From the NCBI RefSeq assembly GCF_030816235.1, contig NZ_JAUSXT010000001.1, positions 2,604,001 through 2,668,000 of the forward strand: DNA of 64,000 nucleotides. The letters are read 5' to 3'. The notes beneath the pieces were generated by a model, which was not told the DNA's origin, did not search any database, and worked only from the letters and a program-made list of their open reading frames with translations. Below, one piece after another: positions 2,903 through 10,925 of the stretch; the stretch's first letter is position 1; each line of letters opens with the position of its first letter. This DNA is from Microbacterium sp. W4I4 (GTDB taxonomy: Bacteria > Actinomycetota > Actinomycetes > Actinomycetales > Microbacteriaceae). Position numbers and translations under genes: made by a program.

Positions 2903-2949
2903 GGAGGGACTGACGGGAATCGAACCCGCGCTATCTGCTTGGGAAGCAG
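2903..2949 (-). repeat. attL: orphan 3' half of tRNA-Gly
   Basis: This 47-bp copy is identical to 7635-7681. Read on the minus strand it runs from the anticodon arm through the T arm to the acceptor 3' strand of tRNA-Gly, and it is no longer joined to a 5' half. It is the original chromosomal 3' end, displaced by integration. The bases beyond the acceptor read T-CC-G here, whereas the element-supplied copy reads T-CC-A. Confidence 0.9.
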
Positions 2950-3240
2950 GTAGCGGCCGCTCTGGGGCCCGCGGAATCACGGGTCACTCCCCGGTGCCTC
3001 TACCGCGGCTTACCCCCGGTTAGTGGCACGTACCGCCCCCTAATGGCACGAATCTGGCACGACCAGAGCCCGCTGACAGGCCCCGGAGGTCCTGCCCTCG
3101 CGGGGGTGACGGGTGTGGATAGCGCGCACGCTGGAGCGTTCCGATATGGGGTTGCGCATGGTTCGCTGGCGAGCACGATGAAGGGGCGGCCCCGCCCACC
3201 GAACTGTGAACCGCGGGACCGCCCCAGTCTGTGGGGTGGA
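2950..3240. other. Non-coding left end of the element with integrase arm-type repeats
   Basis: This 291-bp stretch has no convincing gene. It holds three same-orientation copies of TGGCACG at 3024-3030, 3044-3050 and 3055-3061. Two more copies lie at the other end of the element (7542-7548 and 7553-7559). The 11-base spacing between neighbours is the same at both ends, as expected for arm-type binding sites of a tyrosine integrase. The rest (about 3065-3240) is GC-rich with no further structure that I can support. Confidence 0.6.
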
Positions 3241-3963
3241 CTACGCCTCGGAGAGCGCCAGGTCCTCCAGTAGGAGCGGGATGCCGCCCTGGGAGCCGGG
3301 CACGTCGATGTGCACCCGGTCCCCATCCATGAGAAGCCGGTAGGCGTCCGGGTCCGCACGGTGCAGGAGCGACAGTGCCTCCTGGCTGGCCTCCCCGTGC
3401 TCCGCGAGGTCCGAGAGAACCGCACGCCATGCCGCGGGCTCAGCGGCCGTGCGCTCCTCCTCAGCGATGGCGAGGGCCGCCGGGTCCACCTGGGTGAGGC
3501 GGTCCCAGATCAGGCCCTCATAGGCGGCGAGGAGCCGGTCCCGGTCATCGTGCACCAGCAGGTGCGGCATGACCTCCAGGTCGTCCAGGATCGCGGCCAG
3601 GCGGGTGCGGTCCGCGCGGGCGATCACGTCCTGAAGGCGCATGCCCGGCTCACGCTCGAAGCCCTGAGAGGGGTCCTGACCGGCGTAGACGAGTGCGCGG
3701 ACCTTCTCCCGCTCCCGGGCAAGCGTGGCGTGATCGTCCGCCGTCTTCGGGCGGAGCGTGTCCAGCACGGGCCCGCGGTCCGGCGTCGTCGGCTCCGCGG
3801 GGATCGCGGCGCGCACGGTCGCGCGGATGCGGTCAACGTCCGCGCGCTGGCGGACCCGAGTGCCCTCCGGCGTCAGGTGCGGGTCGCGGAGGGTAGCGGC
3901 CGCGGCGAGGGCGCGGCGGCCCTCGACGTACACGGTGATGCGGTCGGTGGCGGTCATGGTCAT
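3241..3963 (-). CDS. Element-encoded hypothetical protein, 240 aa
   Basis: Function unknown. The protein is soluble, rich in Arg, Asp, Glu, Ala and Leu, and appears almost entirely helical. It opens with a beta-like MTMTATDRITVYVEGRRAL and ends acidic (LLLEDLALSEA). It is the last gene of the minus-strand operon, and its ATG overlaps the stop of the preceding gene as ATGA (3960-3963). In satellites the position after the terS-like gene often holds packaging or capsid-interference genes; that role here is only a positional guess. No metal-binding or catalytic motif is visible. Confidence 0.65.
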   Translation of the reverse strand: MTMTATDRITVYVEGRRALAAAATLRDPHLTPEGTRVRQRADVDRIRATVRAAIPAEPTTPDRGPVLDTLRPKTADDHATLAREREKVRALVYAGQDPSQGFEREPGMRLQDVIARADRTRLAAILDDLEVMPHLLVHDDRDRLLAAYEGLIWDRLTQVDPAALAIAEEERTAAEPAAWRAVLSDLAEHGEASQEALSLLHRADPDAYRLLMDGDRVHIDVPGSQGGIPLLLEDLALSEA

Positions 3964-4196
3964 GCTCCGTTCTTCTGGTGGTTCCCGCGGGTGCGGGCGT
4001 TGAGTTCCGCCTGGAGGCGGACGGTTTCGGTGCGGCGGGCGGCGGCCTCCGCGTGCACCGCGGCGACGTACTCGCGCACGGCGGCCGCGTGCTGGGGCGG
4101 GATGGCGTCGAGCGCGGCGCGGAAGGCGGTCATCCCGTCGCGCTGGCGGTCCCGCGCGGTGCTCAGGGTCGTGGGGCGGGGTGCGGCGTAGACCAC
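3960..4196 (-). CDS. Small element-encoded hypothetical protein, 78 aa
   Basis: A short basic, helical protein (for example PPQHAAAVREYVAAVHAEAA) with no recognised domain. The frame is kept by its 4-base ATGA overlap with the following gene. The GTG start at 4196 has a poor ribosome binding site; the ATG 21 codons further in is an alternative. Upstream, 4197-4303 is about 107 bases without a gene; it contains a small hairpin (7-bp arms at 4224-4230 and 4237-4243) that could be a weak terminator or spacer within the operon. Confidence 0.5.
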   Translation of the reverse strand: MVYAAPRPTTLSTARDRQRDGMTAFRAALDAIPPQHAAAVREYVAAVHAEAAARRTETVRLQAELNARTRGNHQKNGA

Positions 4197-4303
4197 GGCT
4201 CAGCGCCCCTCTCCAGCCTCGGGCGTCCGGTGGTGGCCGGACGGCGTGCTGAGGCGCTGACGGGCCGCTGATGGCCGCCGAGCGGCACGTGCGCTCGCCG
4301 CGG

Positions 4304-4813
4304 TCACGGCTGGCCGTCCATCCCGAGCACCAGCCGGTCGAGGAGCGCCCCGACCTGCTCGAATCCGCCCGGCTTCGCGCCGTCCAGGCCGAGGTAGCGG
4401 GCGCGGCGTTCCATGATCTTCAGCACACGGTCCACCGCGTAGCCGTCCCCGGCGAGCGCCAGGCGCATCTGCGGCACCAGGATCGCGTCCAGGCGTGCCA
4501 GTTCGAGGGCGCGGATGGCCTCCGCCTCCTCCTCGGGGATGCGCTGGACCTCCTCCCGAATCCACCGCTGGACCGTCTTGGGGTGCACGTCCATCCGCTG
4601 GGCGATGGTGGCCATGTCCACCCCGGTGCGGTGCAGGATGAACGCCTCAGCGCGGCGGGTCAGCCGGTCCAGGCGCTTCGCACGGCGGCGCGGCCGCGGG
4701 GAGTCCCCGAGGGCGTACTCCTCCAGGTCCACGTCGGCGGGCAGGGCGGGCACCGGGGCGACGGGCAGAGCCGCGACCTCCTCGTGCGGGATGGTGCTGT
4801 AGGCGGCGCTCAT
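4304..4813 (-). CDS. Helix-turn-helix protein resembling a phage terminase small subunit
   Basis: A 169-residue protein with a helix-turn-helix near residues 60-85 (MATIAQRMDVHPKTVQRWI) followed by an alpha-helical part ending in ERRARYLGLDGAKP. That HTH plus 'RRA-LGLD' combination is familiar from actinophage proteins annotated as terminase small subunits, which recognise pac/cos DNA. The ATG at 4813 was chosen over a GTG at 4864 because it has a GAGGAGAC ribosome binding site and overlaps the stop of the upstream rep gene as ATGA (4810-4813). If the TerS call holds, the gene would redirect a helper phage's packaging machine; a plain DNA-binding regulator is the alternative. Confidence 0.6.
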   Translation of the reverse strand: MSAAYSTIPHEEVAALPVAPVPALPADVDLEEYALGDSPRPRRRAKRLDRLTRRAEAFILHRTGVDMATIAQRMDVHPKTVQRWIREEVQRIPEEEAEAIRALELARLDAILVPQMRLALAGDGYAVDRVLKIMERRARYLGLDGAKPGGFEQVGALLDRLVLGMDGQP

Positions 4814-5604
4814 GCCGTCTCCTCTCGGTAGGTGGCCCACGGGCCGGAGTGATCGCCGGTCCACACGTGGCCGTGCGCGGCGAGGAGGTTGTGCAGTCGG
4901 TCGTCTTCCACGAGGTCATCGCCGCCGGGCTGGTCGGCACGGGAGCGGAGCCCGGCCCAGGTGGTGATGCGCTTTCGGCGGGCGTCGGCGGGGAGGGTGT
5001 CCAGGTAGGCCAGTTCGGCGGGCAGGTGCGCCAGCACGTCTACGGAGTCACAGCGGCCAGCGATGACCTCCAGGGCATCCGTCACGTTCTGCCGTTGGGC
5101 ATCCGTCATGGGGGATGCGCCGCGCGCCAGCGTGGTGTTACACGTCAGTGAATTGGTAGTGGTTGGTAGTGGCACCCCGGTCAGACCGGGGTGCATTACG
5201 TCCGAAACCGGGGTGCATTCCGCCCCAGACCGGGGTGCATTCCTGACCCCATCCGCGGAGTTATCCACAGCGCCAGCGGTGAATGGACCTCGGTCAGACC
5301 GGGGTGCATTGCTCTGGAGTACGGCCAGCGCATACTCCGCGCTTCGGCCCCGATGCGGCTTCGCCACCAGGCGGATGAGCCCCCGGCGGGACAGGCCCGC
5401 GATCACCCTGTCAGTGGCGCTCTGAGCGGCCTTCGTGCCTGGGACCTTGCCAAGGGCGCGCGCAAGCCTCTCGTGCCCCCACGTGTAGACCGGCGCGTCG
5501 TCCTGGACTGCCACCGCCATGTCGAGGAGCACGATGCGTTCCAGTGGGGACACGGCCACGTCGAGGAGCACGTCCTTCATGCGATCCAAGGTCACGAATC
5601 CCAT
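4810..5604 (-). CDS. Putative replication initiator (winged-helix) containing its own iteron origin
   Basis: A 264-residue protein. Residues about 40-95 form a winged-helix-like DNA-binding domain (GHERLARALGKVPG, then VIAGLSRRGLIRLVAK), as in initiator or phage replication proteins. Residues about 98-142 are encoded by the iteron array and look like a low-complexity linker. The C-terminal part (from about 165) is helical. The start at 5604 overlaps the upstream HNH-like gene by 13 bases; an in-frame extension to 5754 would lie wholly inside that gene and was rejected. The replication role rests on the iterons and DnaA box within the gene plus the position after xis; no catalytic primase or helicase motif is visible. 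Confidence 0.6.
   Translation of the reverse strand: MGFVTLDRMKDVLLDVAVSPLERIVLLDMAVAVQDDAPVYTWGHERLARALGKVPGTKAAQSATDRVIAGLSRRGLIRLVAKPHRGRSAEYALAVLQSNAPRSDRGPFTAGAVDNSADGVRNAPRSGAECTPVSDVMHPGLTGVPLPTTTNSLTCNTTLARGASPMTDAQRQNVTDALEVIAGRCDSVDVLAHLPAELAYLDTLPADARRKRITTWAGLRSRADQPGGDDLVEDDRLHNLLAAHGHVWTGDHSGPWATYREETA
5174..5313. other. Candidate replication origin: 22-bp iterons, inverted copy and DnaA box
   Basis: The 13-mer ACCGGGGTGCATT occurs at 5185-5197, 5207-5219, 5229-5241 and 5298-5310. The first three lie exactly 22 bases apart, the helical phasing typical of plasmid iterons; the fourth shares 20 bases of unit sequence with the first. At 5174-5192 the first copy overlaps an inverted repeat (ACCCCGGT-CAG-ACCGGGGT), a natural site for initiator dimers and autorepression. 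A perfect DnaA box lies between copies 3 and 4. The flank at about 5135-5172 is relatively AT-rich and could be the unwinding region. Everything sits inside the initiator's coding sequence. Confidence 0.75.
5261..5269 (+). promoter_or_regulatory. DnaA box TTATCCACA
   Basis: An exact match to the consensus DnaA box, in a region where an AT-rich 9-mer is unlikely by chance. It lies 19 bases after the third iteron and 28 bases before the fourth, so it belongs with the candidate origin rather than with the coding role of this stretch. Confidence 0.75.
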
Positions 5605-5981
5605 CGGGTCCCTCGGCTCTGGGCGTGGTTTCGCTCGCGCACGCATCCCTTGCAGGTCCCGCGGGTATCCACGCCCCAGGCGGCCCGAGCGTGCCCTCGG
5701 GGACACCGGGTCCAGTTGCCGCCGTGGTCGTGCTGGGAGTTGTGCCGCGAGCACGTCGCGGAGTAGTCGTCCAGGTGGATGCTGAAGCGCACCTTCTTGC
5801 CGTGGGAGTTCACGCCGATGTGCGTGGGGTGGCCGATGAGGGCCCAGCCGGTGGCAGGACGGTCACACTCGGGGTGCGCGCACTTCCGGCCCCGGGCCCG
5901 GCCGCGGGCGCGGTTCAGCGCCTTGTGCACGCCGTCATACGTGCGAGCCCGTGTCGTGTGCTCGTCCCCGTGGAGCGGCAT
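5592..5981 (-). CDS. HNH-like zinc-binding protein
   Basis: A 129-residue basic protein with clustered Cys and His: C34 and C39 (KCAHPEC), C77 followed by H80 and H84 (SATCSRHNSQHD), C93 and H97 (RCPRGH), and C110/C113 (TCKGC). The pattern resembles phage HNH or endonuclease-VII-like nucleases with structural zinc, although a complete canonical HNH triad is not clear. The ATG at 5981 has a GAGG ribosome binding site and begins one base after the xis stop. It overlaps the next gene by 13 bases. Small HNH proteins are common next to phage packaging genes; here it sits in the replication operon. Confidence 0.6.
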   Translation of the reverse strand: MPLHGDEHTTRARTYDGVHKALNRARGRARGRKCAHPECDRPATGWALIGHPTHIGVNSHGKKVRFSIHLDDYSATCSRHNSQHDHGGNWTRCPRGHARAAWGVDTRGTCKGCVRERNHAQSRGTRWDS

Positions 5982-5982
5982 C

Positions 5983-6207
5983 TCAGGCCTCGCCGTCGAT
6001 GAATGCAAGGAACGCGGCCGTGCTGATGCGGATGGCCTTGCCGAACCGCTGAACGGGGAGCGCGCCGTTGGCCACCATCTTGTAGACGTTGCTGGGGTGG
6101 CACTCCAGGAGGGTCGCCACGTCCGGGACCTTCAGGAACGCGGGCGGGTTCTCGCGGATGCGTGCCAGGGTGGCGGCGCTGGCGCTCGGTGCTGTGGTGG
6201 AAGTCAT
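5983..6207 (-). CDS. xis: Excisionase-like helix-turn-helix protein
   Basis: A 74-residue protein with a MerR/AlpA-type winged HTH (VPDVATLLECHPSNVYKMVA, then LPVQRFGKAIRI), the fold of recombination directionality factors. It is the first gene of the minus-strand operon and diverges from the integrase gene across a 186-bp control region, the usual int/xis relationship. An AAAGGA sequence precedes the ATG. It probably bends attachment-site DNA for excision and may also regulate the operon. Confidence 0.8.
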   Translation of the reverse strand: MTSTTAPSASAATLARIRENPPAFLKVPDVATLLECHPSNVYKMVANGALPVQRFGKAIRISTAAFLAFIDGEA

Positions 6208-6353
6208 CAGGAGGTCCTTTCGGGTTAGCGGTGGCTAGCCCAGGTCCTTCCTGGATGGCGGTCGCGTCGTCGGTGGCGCTTCCCTGTGGGACATGACGGT
6301 AACACGGGGTATGCTGGCGTTGCAAACACAAAACCCCAGGCCAGACATCAAAT

Positions 6354-6372
6354 TGGTGACAGTGTGTCACCA
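6354..6372. promoter_or_regulatory. Palindromic operator upstream of integrase
   Basis: TGGTGACA-GTG-TGTCACCA is a perfect inverted repeat with 8-bp arms and a 3-base centre. It ends 12 bases before the integrase GGAGGA ribosome binding site and lies inside a second, wider inverted repeat (GGCCAG 6339-6344, CTGGCC 6374-6379). It occupies the control region between the divergent int and xis operons and is the best candidate for a repressor or Xis binding site. Confidence 0.55.
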
Positions 6373-6393
6373 CCTGGCCCGGACGGAGGAAAC

Positions 6394-7617
6394 ATGGCAG
6401 AGCGGCGGCAGAAGGCCAATCGACAGGCGTTCGGGAGCGTCCGGCAACTCCCCTCCGGCAGGTGGCAAGCCCGCTACCCAGACCCCGCCGGGCGGCCCAT
6501 GAACGCGCCCACCACCTTCCCCACGAAGCGCGAAGCCCAGGACCACATCGCCGGAGTCCGCGCGGACCGCATGCGCGGCACCTACCGGGACCACCGCGCC
6601 GGGCTCCAGCCCTTCGGCCCCTACGCCACGGAGTGGGCGGCCAACGGCGGCACCCGCGGGCGGCTCGCCGCGAAGACCCAGGTGCTCTACGAGGACCTGC
6701 TCGCCGGGCCCCTCGCCGGGCTCCACGACCGCGCCCTGTCCGCCATCACCCCCGCGGACGTGCGCGCCTGGTACACCCGCACCCGGAAGACGCTCCAGAA
6801 GGCCGTGAAGAACCGCCCCGGTGCCACCGGAGAGGCCCGCCTCCGCCAGGCGTACAGCCTCCTCCGCACCATCCTCAACGCCGCCGTCAAGGACCGGCTC
6901 ATCAGCGAGAATCCTTGCCAGATCGAGGGGGCCGGGCAGGTCAACGACCCCGAGCGCCCGTACCTCTCGCCGGAGCACCTGGCCACCATCGTGGAGGCCA
7001 TGCCGGAGAAGTGGCACCTGCCCATCCGGGTGGCCTACGGCGCGCATCTCCGCGTCGGGGAGTTGGAAGCGCTCCAGCGGGGCGACTACGCGAACGGGGC
7101 CCTACGGGTGGAGCGCCAGCGCATCTACGTCCGCGGGCAGGGCACCATCACGCCCACGAAGACGGGGGAGGCGCGCACCGTGGTGCTCCCGCCCAGCATC
7201 GCCGCGGAGGTTGAGGCCTACCTGGCCAGCACGACAGGATTCCCCAAGTCGCCGCTGTTCCCCCGCCGGGACGGCCAGGCCATCACCAGCAACGCCCTCG
7301 GGCACGCCTGGCGGAAAGCGGCCCGCGGCGTCGGCCTGGGACAGTTCCACGTGCACGACCTCCGGCACGCCAGCCTCACCGCGGCCGCCCAGGCCGGTGG
7401 CACCACGCGGGAACTCATGGCCCGCGCCGGGCACCGCACCGCACGCGCGGCGCTCATCTACCAGCACGCCGCGGAGGAGCGGAGCGCGGTCCTCGCGGCG
7501 GCCATGGATGCCCTGCCTGGAGGGGCGATTTCGCGCACTACTGGCACGTCTATGGCACGGCCGGGCCTGGAGGCGGTCCTCCGGCTGGAACTTACGGCCG
7601 ATGGAAACCCGCTGTGA
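6394..7617 (+). CDS. int: Tyrosine recombinase/integrase
   Basis: A 407-residue phage-type integrase. An N-terminal arm-binding region (about 1-80) and SAM-like core-binding domain (about 85-180) precede the catalytic domain, where all active-site residues are visible: R220 (GAHLRVGELEAL), K256 (TPTKTGEARTV), H321 and R324 (HDLRHAS), H347 (AGHRTA) and nucleophile Y356 (IYQHA). The ATG at 6394 follows a GGAGGAAAC ribosome binding site; an upstream in-frame start at 6286 would run through the operator region. It reads toward the intact tRNA, which it presumably uses as attB. Its 3' end contains two TGGCACG arm-type repeats. It should catalyse integration and, with Xis, excision. Confidence 0.93.
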   Translation: MAERRQKANRQAFGSVRQLPSGRWQARYPDPAGRPMNAPTTFPTKREAQDHIAGVRADRMRGTYRDHRAGLQPFGPYATEWAANGGTRGRLAAKTQVLYEDLLAGPLAGLHDRALSAITPADVRAWYTRTRKTLQKAVKNRPGATGEARLRQAYSLLRTILNAAVKDRLISENPCQIEGAGQVNDPERPYLSPEHLATIVEAMPEKWHLPIRVAYGAHLRVGELEALQRGDYANGALRVERQRIYVRGQGTITPTKTGEARTVVLPPSIAAEVEAYLASTTGFPKSPLFPRRDGQAITSNALGHAWRKAARGVGLGQFHVHDLRHASLTAAAQAGGTTRELMARAGHRTARAALIYQHAAEERSAVLAAAMDALPGGAISRTTGTSMARPGLEAVLRLELTADGNPL

Positions 7618-7633
7618 CCTGGGGATAATGCGG

Positions 7634-7707
7634 TGGAGGGACTGACGGGAATCGAACCCGCGCTATCTGCTTGGGAAGCAGAAGTTCTGCCATTGAACTA
7701 CAGTCCC
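7634..7707 (-). tRNA. tRNA-Gly (anticodon CCC)
   Basis: On the minus strand the cloverleaf folds fully: acceptor GGGACTG pairs with CAGTCCC, D stem GTTC/GAAC, anticodon stem TCTGC/GCAGA with loop TTCCCAA (anticodon CCC, glycine), and a T arm with TTCGATT. The mature body is 7637-7707 with discriminator T, and CCA is encoded at 7634-7636. The gene is a hybrid: its 5' half is chromosomal and its 3' half belongs to the integrated element. Confidence 0.95.
7635..7681 (-). repeat. attR: 3' half of tRNA-Gly supplied by the element
   Basis: Identical to 2903-2949. This copy is joined to the chromosomal 5' half and so rebuilds a functional tRNA-Gly. The crossover lies somewhere within the 47 identical bases, with the edge at the anticodon stem. 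Confidence 0.9.
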
Positions 7708-8784: not shown

Positions 8785-9590
8785 CCGCGATCCAGGCACG
8801 CGCCACCCACATCCCCGCGACGAGCTTGCGTCCGACGTTCGTCCGCCAGCTCCGCAGCGAGCTCATCAAGCTGATGACCGTCCGCGGCACATGGTGGTCG
8901 GTCGCCATCGTCGCGGCTCTGACCATCGGGATCGCGTTCATCGTGGCATCCGCGATCACCCCGCCGGTCGACAACATCGTCATGGCGGTCATCATGCCGG
9001 TGCAGTTCACGATGATGCTCGCCGGCATCCTCGGCGTGATCTCGGTCACCGGCGAATACTCCACCGGCATGATCCGTTCCACCTTCACCGCGAACCCCGT
9101 GCGCGGCCTGGTGGTCGCCGCGAAGGCGACCGTGCTGGCCGCGTTCATGTTCGTCGTCTCCCTCGTCATCTTCGTCATCGCCGCCGTGGGCATCTCGCCT
9201 CTGGCCGCGTCCAAGGACATGGCGCTGGACTGGGCCGACCCCCAGAGGGTGATCCTGCCGATCCTCGCCGCATCCGCCGCGATGGCGCTGTTCGCCCTCC
9301 TCGGCGTCGGCATCGGCTTCCTGCTGCGCTCCGGGGCAGGCGCGATCGCCGTCACCGTCGGCATCATCTTCGTTCTGCCTGTGATCGTCAGCCTGCTCGG
9401 CGCCCTCCTTCACGACGTCCAGTGGATCGCCGAGCTCGGCGACTACCTGCCCTCCGCGGCCGCGCAGTACGCGATCCTCCCGCAGGACGGTGCACCGGTC
9501 AGCACGCCGATCGCCTGGGTCACGCTCGCCGCCTGGCCCGCCGCCGCCCTGCTGGGCGCGTGGGCCGTGGTGCGCGGACGGGACGTGTGA
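8781..9590 (+). CDS. ABC-2 type membrane permease
   Basis: A 269-residue permease with about six hydrophobic segments (for example VAIVAALTIGIAFIVASAI near residues 40-60). The N-terminal FVRQLRSELIKLMTVRGTWW is the classic start of ABC-2 permeases that pair with BcrA-type ATPases. It is translationally coupled to the ATPase gene (ATGA at 8781-8784). The pair should form a homodimeric or heterodimeric exporter of a lipid, peptide or antibiotic; the substrate is unknown. Confidence 0.88.
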   Translation: MTAIQARATHIPATSLRPTFVRQLRSELIKLMTVRGTWWSVAIVAALTIGIAFIVASAITPPVDNIVMAVIMPVQFTMMLAGILGVISVTGEYSTGMIRSTFTANPVRGLVVAAKATVLAAFMFVVSLVIFVIAAVGISPLAASKDMALDWADPQRVILPILAASAAMALFALLGVGIGFLLRSGAGAIAVTVGIIFVLPVIVSLLGALLHDVQWIAELGDYLPSAAAQYAILPQDGAPVSTPIAWVTLAAWPAAALLGAWAVVRGRDV

Positions 9591-9653: not shown

Positions 9654-10925
9654 GTGTCCAGATCGCACAGCCGCAGCTCCGCCGTCCTCCGGGACGACGG
9701 GCTGCGGCTGCCGCGTCCGCCGGGCATCATCCGGCAGTTCTGGGCCCGGCATCCGCGCTTCGCCGACATCCTGGTCGCGCTGATCTGCCTGGCCCTGTCG
9801 GTCGGATCCAGCGCCGCGCCCTACTCGGATGCGGCGACGATCCCGCCGGCGGGAGCGATCGTGATCGCCGTCGCTCTCATCGCCTCCGCCGTGCTGCTGG
9901 TGTGGCGTCGGCGCTGGCCGGTCGCGGTCCTGGTCGCTGCGATCGTCGCCGACGTGCTGCTGCTGGTCATCACGCGATCCTCGGGCGGCCCCGCCTTCGC
10001 CCTCGCCCTGTACACACTCGCCGTCCACCGCTCCCCGAGGTCCAGCTGGATCGGCCTCGGGGCCGGAGTGGCGATCACCGGAGGCCTCGCCCTCGCCTGG
10101 TTCGGACTCGGCGGGCTCACCCTGCAGGCGGCGCTCAACACGGTGCTCGCCGTGAGCATCCCCGGACTCATCGGTGCGCTGATCGGCATCAACATCGGCA
10201 ACCGCAAGCGCTACATCGACGCGGTCATCGCCCGCTCGCGGCAGCTGCTCGTGGAACGCGACCAGCAGGGTCAGCTCGCCGCAGCCGCCGAGCGCGACCG
10301 CATCGCACGCGAGATGCACGACATCGTCTCGCACTCGCTGACAGTGGTCGTCGCGCTTTCGGAGGGTGCCGCGGCGACGTCGGATCGGGACCGTGCGAGG
10401 GATGCATCGATGGCGGCCGCTCAGACCGCCCGCGATGCGCTCACCGAGATGCGCTCCATGCTGGGGGTGCTGCGCGACGGCGATGCGGATGCCCCGCTCG
10501 CGCCACTGGATGCGACGAACCCCGCCGACACGGTCGCGACCGCTCAGCGCGCCGGCTTCCCGGTCTCGCTCGCCACGCGTGGAGAGGTGGATGCCGCACC
10601 GGCACTGCGCTTCGCGATCGGACGCATCATTCAGGAGGGCGTCACGAACGCGATCCGGCACGCGCCGATGGCGAGCACGATCGACGTGCGGATCGATCAT
10701 GATGCGGATCCGATCGTGATCGAGATCGTCAACGACGGCGCCTCCCGCCCGGTGTCCGACGCCGGCTTCGGTCTGCGGGGCCTCGCCGAGCGCGCCGCGC
10801 TGCTCGGCGGCGTCGTCGTCTCGGCTCCGGCGGGAGAAGCGCGATGGATGCTGCGCGCCGAGCTGCCGCACCCGACCGGACTCCCCGCTGCCCCGCAACC
10901 GACCGCCAAGGAGACCGACCGATGA
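9654..10925 (+). CDS. Sensor histidine kinase, NarL/LuxR-type system
   Basis: A 423-residue membrane kinase with about four to five helices (residues about 35-180), then a HisKA_3 dimerisation box with the phosphoryl-accepting His in ERDRIAREMHDIVSHSL and a C-terminal HATPase (GLRGLAERAALLGG). The GTG start was chosen because a TAGAGT box sits 7 bases upstream; an in-frame ATG at 9627 lies upstream of that box. It is coupled to the response regulator by an ATGA overlap. Position after the ABC exporter suggests it senses the exported compound or envelope stress. Confidence 0.9.
   Translation: MSRSHSRSSAVLRDDGLRLPRPPGIIRQFWARHPRFADILVALICLALSVGSSAAPYSDAATIPPAGAIVIAVALIASAVLLVWRRRWPVAVLVAAIVADVLLLVITRSSGGPAFALALYTLAVHRSPRSSWIGLGAGVAITGGLALAWFGLGGLTLQAALNTVLAVSIPGLIGALIGINIGNRKRYIDAVIARSRQLLVERDQQGQLAAAAERDRIAREMHDIVSHSLTVVVALSEGAAATSDRDRARDASMAAAQTARDALTEMRSMLGVLRDGDADAPLAPLDATNPADTVATAQRAGFPVSLATRGEVDAAPALRFAIGRIIQEGVTNAIRHAPMASTIDVRIDHDADPIVIEIVNDGASRPVSDAGFGLRGLAERAALLGGVVVSAPAGEARWMLRAELPHPTGLPAAPQPTAKETDR

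Follow-up and report, generated by a model that had tools for sequence, protein, structure and literature searches.

A 4.7-kb element at a tRNA-Gly gene of Microbacterium sp. W4I4 is probably a minimal headful-packaged phage satellite

We analysed a stretch of 64,000 nt from Microbacterium sp. W4I4 (GCF_030816235.1, NZ_JAUSXT010000001.1, positions 2,604,001-2,668,000; hereafter the window, to which its coordinates are relative), in which a seven-gene element of 4.73 kb is integrated at a tRNA-Gly gene, and we propose that this element is probably a minimal, headful-packaged phage satellite. The attachment (att) sites, the gene content, the iterons, the homologies, the selection on its genes and the lack of virion genes, on which the proposal is based, are all taken from the sequence. 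Comparison lends good support to the original prediction of a minimal packaging parasite of an actinophage, through a family of sister elements, through homologues of its small terminase subunit (TerS) that stand beside genes for the large subunit (TerL), and, in some sisters, through homologues of the tape-measure and initiator genes of the phage group. These results suggest that Actinobacteria harbour a family of TerS-bearing phage satellites, which screens keyed to capsid genes would overlook. Its window member, known here from sequence alone, is smaller than the 6.1-kb PICMI115 of Vibrio chagasii, called in 2024 by its authors the smallest satellite with characterised activity (PMC10803314).

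The ends of the element are set by two perfect copies of a 47-bp direct repeat (Table 1), a pair that had no match in 100 shuffles; att repeats at tRNA-Gly had been predicted, and the right copy indeed lies inside tRNA-Gly(CCC). From left to right, the genes are orf240, orf78, terS, rep, a zinc-finger-like gene and xis, all on the minus strand, followed by int on the plus strand; the complete tyrosine integrase and the xis diverging from it had both been recognized correctly. Overlaps of four bases between orf240 and orf78 and between terS and rep suggest an operon-like arrangement. The conserved non-coding block at about 3019-3071 was considered as a pac site and rejected, because its TGGCACG repeats recur near the int end, and we therefore read it as probable integrase arm sites; no candidate pac site was identified in the element.

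Table 1. Features of the element and its integration site in window coordinates
Feature	Position	Strand	Basis and remarks
Whole element, att to att	2903..7681		47-bp perfect repeats, spacing 4,732 bp; predicted excised circle 4,732 bp
Distal att repeat	2903..2949		Perfect 47-bp direct repeat
Three TGGCACG repeats, likely integrase arm sites	3024..3061	plus	Stretch conserved near distal att in several relatives
orf240, 240 aa, probable packaging-module protein	3241..3963	minus	18/20 elements; all-helical model; adjoins TerS-like genes at phage-type loci
orf78, 78 aa, function unknown, conserved in family	3960..4196	minus	16/20 elements
Small terminase subunit (TerS), 169 aa	4304..4813	minus	HTH_23; synteny; model
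Replication initiator (rep), 264 aa	4810..5604	minus	Relatives match phage replication-initiation families; 13/20 elements by profile
Four iterons within rep, probable origin	5182..5310	plus	Repeat search; clustered repeats in 14/20 elements
Zinc-finger-like protein (by eye), the predicted HNH-like gene	5592..5981	minus	phrog_4160; 13/20 elements
Excisionase / AlpA-like protein (xis)	5983..6207	minus	HTH_17 and TIGR01764, both over cut-off; 16/20 elements
Tyrosine integrase (int), 407 aa, complete	6394..7617	plus	PF00589, E 5e-16; 20/20 elements
Two TGGCACG repeats on the opposite side, likely integrase arm sites	7542..7559	plus	
att repeat within tRNA-Gly	7635..7681		Perfect 47-bp direct repeat
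tRNA-Gly(CCC), integration target, stays intact	7634..7707	minus	ARAGORN; Rfam RF00005

The identification of TerS rests mainly on synteny. Among the 80 loci with homologues examined of 134 in IMG/VR, 69 (some loci being near-copies of one another) have terL close downstream on the same strand, the terL profile having been iterated on these loci, and the closest named phage homologues are encoded by gene 1 of the Microbacterium phages Gingerbug, DelaGarza and Lesiram. The predicted TerS-like helix-turn-helix (HTH) gene is borne out mainly by the position of its homologues; the open reading frame (ORF) itself matches HTH_23 of Pfam, and Terminase_5 only weakly, below the cut-off. A structural check was suggested with the original prediction for this protein and for the product of orf240: the TerS model combines an HTH with long helices, none of the 50 best rows of its Foldseek search is a terminase, and TerS appeared in three of 50 rows in a second look, in VIA, only. 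The TerS profile compared with PDB sequences retrieves mainly HTH regulators (best E 2e-6), covering the HTH only. The best PHROG family, phrog_645, is labelled "Rnase E", a label that we reject because its members stand before terL, as in L138; the name is probably mistaken and conceals small terminases.

In a tree of 47 TerS rows, in which the bootstrap had not settled and some branches are long, the window clade (with L129 and L130) is sister to the phage contig L049 with support 96/92. Satellite and phage rows interleave, with 5 changes of label, at least three of them forced by starred branches, compared to a mean of 16 after shuffling. In L130 terS (9832-10322) appears to be split across two frames near the N-terminus.

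The family was delimited by a search with TerS, which gave matches in 26 of 366 Microbacterium genomes and in 7 of 299 Microbacteriaceae genomes, the host being counted in both. About 20 kb was fetched around each of 32 non-host places (two pieces were much shorter) and screened for repeats at tRNA genes; 19 of these places and the window element make up the set of 20 delimited elements, all of which contain terS by selection. They measure 4,732-12,387 bp from repeat to repeat and occupy, in Microbacteriaceae, seven types of tRNA genes (Gly 8, Ala 5, Val 3, Thr 1, Pro 1, Tyr 1 and Arg 1), so that the search for the same gene block in related genomes, proposed at the outset, yielded 19 tRNA-bounded sisters of shared layout, and the window element is one of eight at tRNA-Gly. 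The integrase is universal in the set, the tRNA-repeat filter favouring its bearers, and orf240 is the next most widespread among the genes not used for selection. The 13 places excluded for want of an att-type repeat at a tRNA gene (L132, L138, L142, L145, L149, L151, L153-L155 and L157-L160) include L132, cut by a contig end, and L158, both with int, terS and other core genes, as well as L138 and L157, which carry terL and are prophages. Also outside the set are elements with orf240 only (L193, L198 and L208), remnants or partial elements (L196, L207, L209 and L210) and the unclear L211 and L212; L161, 100% identical to L137 over its entire length, was counted once.

Neither the window element nor L135 (4,837 bp) has a cargo ORF of 100 aa. 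The cargo of other sisters, most of which lies outside the core block at one end or the other, includes restriction and methylase genes (Eco29kI, NgoMIV, C5 and N6/N4 methylases) and genes for MrcB/NOV_C, PIN and HIRAN proteins; its restriction and methylase genes suggest that these elements may serve as a hotspot of defence genes. Restriction or methylase cargo lies at the distal end in L143 (7038-8848), L137 (3874-5292) and L144 (12237-13508), and inside the block in L152 (12287-13264). A full tape-measure gene is present inside the att sites of L131 (5606-8053), L137 (5993-8146) and L141 (12481-14742), as well as in L198 (11508-13532). That of L131 is 73.6% identical to the DelaGarza gene in aligned pieces covering 83% of the L131 copy, and that of L137 is 66% identical over 745 columns; no other tail genes were found by Pfam in L131, L137 and L141.

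The absence of capsid and repressor genes, noted originally for the window element, extends to its relatives as far as virion genes are concerned. Profiles of TerL, portal, major capsid, scaffold and minor capsid proteins, the last four made from single Gingerbug sequences, gave no match in the 20 elements, and no virion-type Pfam family (TerL, portal or capsid) was found in 75 of the 76 non-core ORFs of at least 100 aa in the relatives, which were scanned with Pfam and PHROG (the omitted one is a 110-aa ORF of L140; the PHROG results cover 25 of 60 families). No repressor family was found in the window element by Pfam, PHROG and NCBIfam scans.

We regard as the candidate helper a relative of Gingerbug and DelaGarza, or of the viral contig L049, whose TerL, portal and major-capsid homologues are 71-78% identical to those of Gingerbug. 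In a comparison of 44 of the 70 annotated DelaGarza genes with the 20 elements and L161, only three proteins matched at E<=1e-3: gp1 (TerS) in 17 of the 20 elements, gp20 (tape measure) in L131, L137 and L141, and gp45 in four (L131, L133, L135 and L137). The last of these matches phage replication-initiation families, and its gene directly precedes one annotated as a helicase loader. Apart from terS and the tape-measure gene, the elements share with the candidate phages only short, scattered stretches of matching DNA. Gingerbug is reported to have a circularly permuted genome, in which no integrase or repressor was found, to be thought lytic, and to form virions with a head of 52-54 nm and a tail of 123-128 nm (PMC9670888). 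The recorded host of Gingerbug, DelaGarza and Lesiram is the same strain, M. foliorum NRRL B-24224, and packaging, host protection and tail exchange are therefore open to direct testing. A helper prophage resident in the W4I4 genome was rejected on the four markers tried, as there were no matches to Gingerbug TerL (a query without a positive control), to the portal families PF04860 and PF05133 or to PhageMin_Tail (the positive controls of these three matched), and this result favours an incoming lytic helper.

The same result could be taken to mean that the element is a decayed prophage, immobile and stripped of its structural genes, of which only early genes and terS are left, and its genes are indeed of phage type. 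However, 20 elements at seven types of tRNA gene share the compact layout, and the TerS tree mixes satellite with phage rows as if the gene had been exchanged. Moreover, each of the five genes tested has a dN/dS below 1 against L129 (int 0.10, xis 0.28, terS 0.28, orf240 0.29 and rep 0.67; int gives 0.10 and 0.13 against two relatives), which suggests that the element is maintained and that rep evolves fastest. We therefore regard decay as improbable.

A satellite would have a life cycle for which we infer excision, a pac site, pairing with the helper TerL, concatemer packaging and the identity of the helper. Int and Xis would excise the element from tRNA-Gly as a 4.7-kb circle, Rep would bind the iterons within its own gene and start replication, and concatemers would form with the help of host or phage replication proteins. 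The satellite TerS, probably together with the orf240 product, would mark the DNA of the element for the TerL of an infecting siphovirus. As circular permutation implies headful packaging, the permuted genome of Gingerbug suggests that the helper TerL would fill a head of full size with some eight copies in tandem (39.7 kb / 4.73 kb = 8.4), and packaging as a concatemer is expected from this permutation and the size of the element. The particle would then inject the concatemer DNA, one copy of which Int would reinsert.

The putative role of orf240 in this cycle follows from its distribution. Neither orf240 nor orf78 has a Pfam, PHROG or NCBIfam match better than E 0.1, in agreement with the initial impression of two terminal genes without a recognizable family. 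For the orf240 product, there is no PDB sequence match at E<=1, and its confident model (pLDDT 88.5, pTM 0.76), composed of helices only, has no match at E<=0.001 in PDB or BFVD (best E 0.15 and 0.17), so that this part of the structural check gave no fold. Matches to an orf240 profile, counting those at phage-type loci, come from 36 of the 366 Microbacterium genomes; the 50,697 phage records yielded none, and IMG/VR yielded a single one, on a contig of 9.5 kb that is identical to L137. Among 20 further orf240 loci that were fetched, 11 are of another, phage-like type, in which neither int nor xis was found (L194, L195, L197 and L199-L206). In 9 of these 11 (L199, the source of the query, being counted) a TerS-like gene directly follows the orf240 relative on the same strand; TerL then follows in L199 and L206 and was not found in the other nine by the two TerL queries used, and tape-measure matches lie 8-9 kb downstream in L201, L203 and L205. 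L202, also counted here, is a contig of 4,990 bp with orf240, TerS-like and tape-measure genes within about 4 kb and no TerL found, and may be either a compact satellite or a deletion derivative. The adjacency to TerS-like genes makes a role in packaging likelier for orf240 than one in interference, and it is probably a gene of the packaging module; the suggestion that the two terminal genes are a helper-interference module is thus not what the distribution favours.

Interference could instead be the task of TerS itself, if it titrated the helper TerL rather than packaged, with the satellite travelling by generalized transduction. Headful phages readily transduce small concatemers, and L193, L198 and L208 have orf240, int and xis between tRNA repeats with no TerS recognized by profile (the int match of L198 is partial). 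The constraint on terS would be explained by either role and is a weak point against this proposal; the TerS lineages, however, track those of phages, which fits packaging better, and we consider titration quite improbable. In L198 an ORF at 8967-9350 looks WhiB-like by eye.

Extending the reading of the element as a packaged satellite, it is tempting to view TerS and the orf240 product as a two-protein cassette for packaging redirection, the latter being a new class of terminase partner. Members without a recognizable TerS might then re-aim the TerS of the helper via orf240, with a logic like that ascribed to Rpp of proteobacterial PICIs, or phage-inducible chromosomal islands (PMC10690885), and members with a tape-measure gene might build chimeric tails like the PLEs of Vibrio, convergently. 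We regard this extension as possible but doubtful. In any case, orf240 provides a handle on a helical protein family that occurs beside phage packaging genes and has no known fold match.

An actinomycete integrative and conjugative element (AICE) combines a conjugation gene of the FtsK/TraB type with int, xis and rep. That the window element is the remnant of an AICE, as the original prediction allowed, or another mobilisable, plasmid-like element, with an HTH gene that codes for a common regulator, is very unlikely: the integrase, excisionase and initiator are AICE-like and the HTH part also resembles those of transposases and regulators, but no conjugation or relaxase family of Pfam was found in the element or in the 75 ORFs of relatives, the tested genes are under purifying selection, and the family of the HTH protein precedes terL at most of the viral loci described above.

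Judged by its sequence, the element would work like a TerS-bearing PICI and like PICMI, and it is filed as neither, since its size departs from the former and its site and gene content from the latter. PICIs have the layout int / xis-rep-ori and a master repressor of the Stl type. Like TerS-bearing PICIs of the SaPI type, the element has its own TerS, which would redirect a headful helper, and a replication module, and it lacks a complete set of virion genes (PMC6092414); its relatives contain defence-type cargo. It has a specific att site with its own integrase (PF00589), a replication module and origin recognizable in the sequence, the window rep matching no named family, and a TerS homologue identified by synteny. 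However, PICIs are described as having about one third of the helper genome (PMC6092414), whereas the window element has about an eighth of the 39.7 kb of the nearest named phages (the true helper may differ), and no repressor or known interference gene was found in it. Of the capsid, portal and two terminase genes that characterize capsid-forming PICIs, only TerS was found.

PICMI is similarly very small, with an integrase, an AlpA-like regulator, a replication gene and no capsid-remodelling gene, and PICMI115 is reported to fill full heads of a lytic helper with 8-copy concatemers by a headful-like route (PMC10803314). The seven genes of the window element, with no structural family found, agree with such a reduced content. 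On the other hand, PICMI is described as lying beside fis in Vibrionaceae and having a putative primase and no terS (PMC10803314), whereas the present family occupies tRNA sites in Actinobacteria, contains TerS and orf240, and has initiators whose relatives match phage O-like families; the window element, at tRNA-Gly of a Microbacterium, has no primase family.

Among satellites of Actinobacteria, MulchRoom and MiniFlayer of Streptomyces are satellites of siphoviruses presumed virulent, but MulchRoom has 14.8 kb and both carry terminase, portal and capsid genes (PMC10690885). Candidate mycobacterial PICIs, three of which are shown with tyrosine integrases in tRNA genes, were defined by an integrase together with a major capsid protein (PMC10654092); no capsid gene was found here, and such a search would therefore miss the present family. 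The tape-measure genes of L131, L137, L141 and L198 resemble those of a helper, as in the PLEs of V. cholerae, but the window element has none, and PLEs occur in Vibrio and are larger, 18-19 kb (PMC6092414). Chimeric tails built by PLEs with their own tape measure, and tmp genes noted in other satellites, were described in 2026 (PMC12987554), so that the sisters with tape-measure genes would be a further lineage of an idea already in print. A review of actinobacterial prophages considers that small elements may be satellites and that experimental validation lags (PMC10023795), and a literature search for Microbacterium phage satellites or PICIs, with most subscription journals and preprints outside its scope, found only the paper on Streptomyces satellites (PMC10690885).

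The HTH_17 excisionase could play the part of an AlpA-type regulator. The zinc-finger-like protein was initially called HNH-like, but no HNH family of Pfam or NCBIfam matches it; the best match is phrog_4160 (function unknown, E 2e-7), and there are matches in 6 Microbacterium phage records. The start of rep was placed at 5604 because aligned relatives begin there. Among ten relatives of the initiator scanned, eight (all but L143 and L141) match phage replication-initiation families; the window rep matches neither these nor other families of Pfam, PHROG and NCBIfam, nor any phage record, and has no PDB sequence match at E<=1. The iterons predicted with it are real, the sequence CAGACCGGGGTGCATT being found exactly at 5182, 5226 and 5295 and with two mismatches at 5204 (shuffle mean 0.05), but they lie inside the reading frame of the initiator and not beside it. 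In 14 of the 20 elements there are clustered repeats of 11-19 bases, with at least three copies in a stretch of 200 bp; none of 40 shuffles of the region of each element reached the value of that element. In an alignment of the initiators of the window (4810-5604), L129, L141, L136, L137 and L134, the proteins look modular, with a winged-helix-like N-terminal part and C-terminal parts recombined between elements, and repeats lie in the region coding for the linker in most of them.

The gene next to the element, which we take to be of the YajQ type, was not found in any other member of the genus among 38 relatives searched. A search of 198 genomes of the genus for the tRNA and ABC genes revealed in G310 (L218) a tRNA-Gly followed by a presumably LysE-type gene and then by the same YajQ-type gene, without a satellite; this locus is an element-free site, not the exact pre-insertion site. 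The corresponding tRNA-Gly and ABC-gene site of another species (L221/L136, genome G587) holds a different sister satellite.

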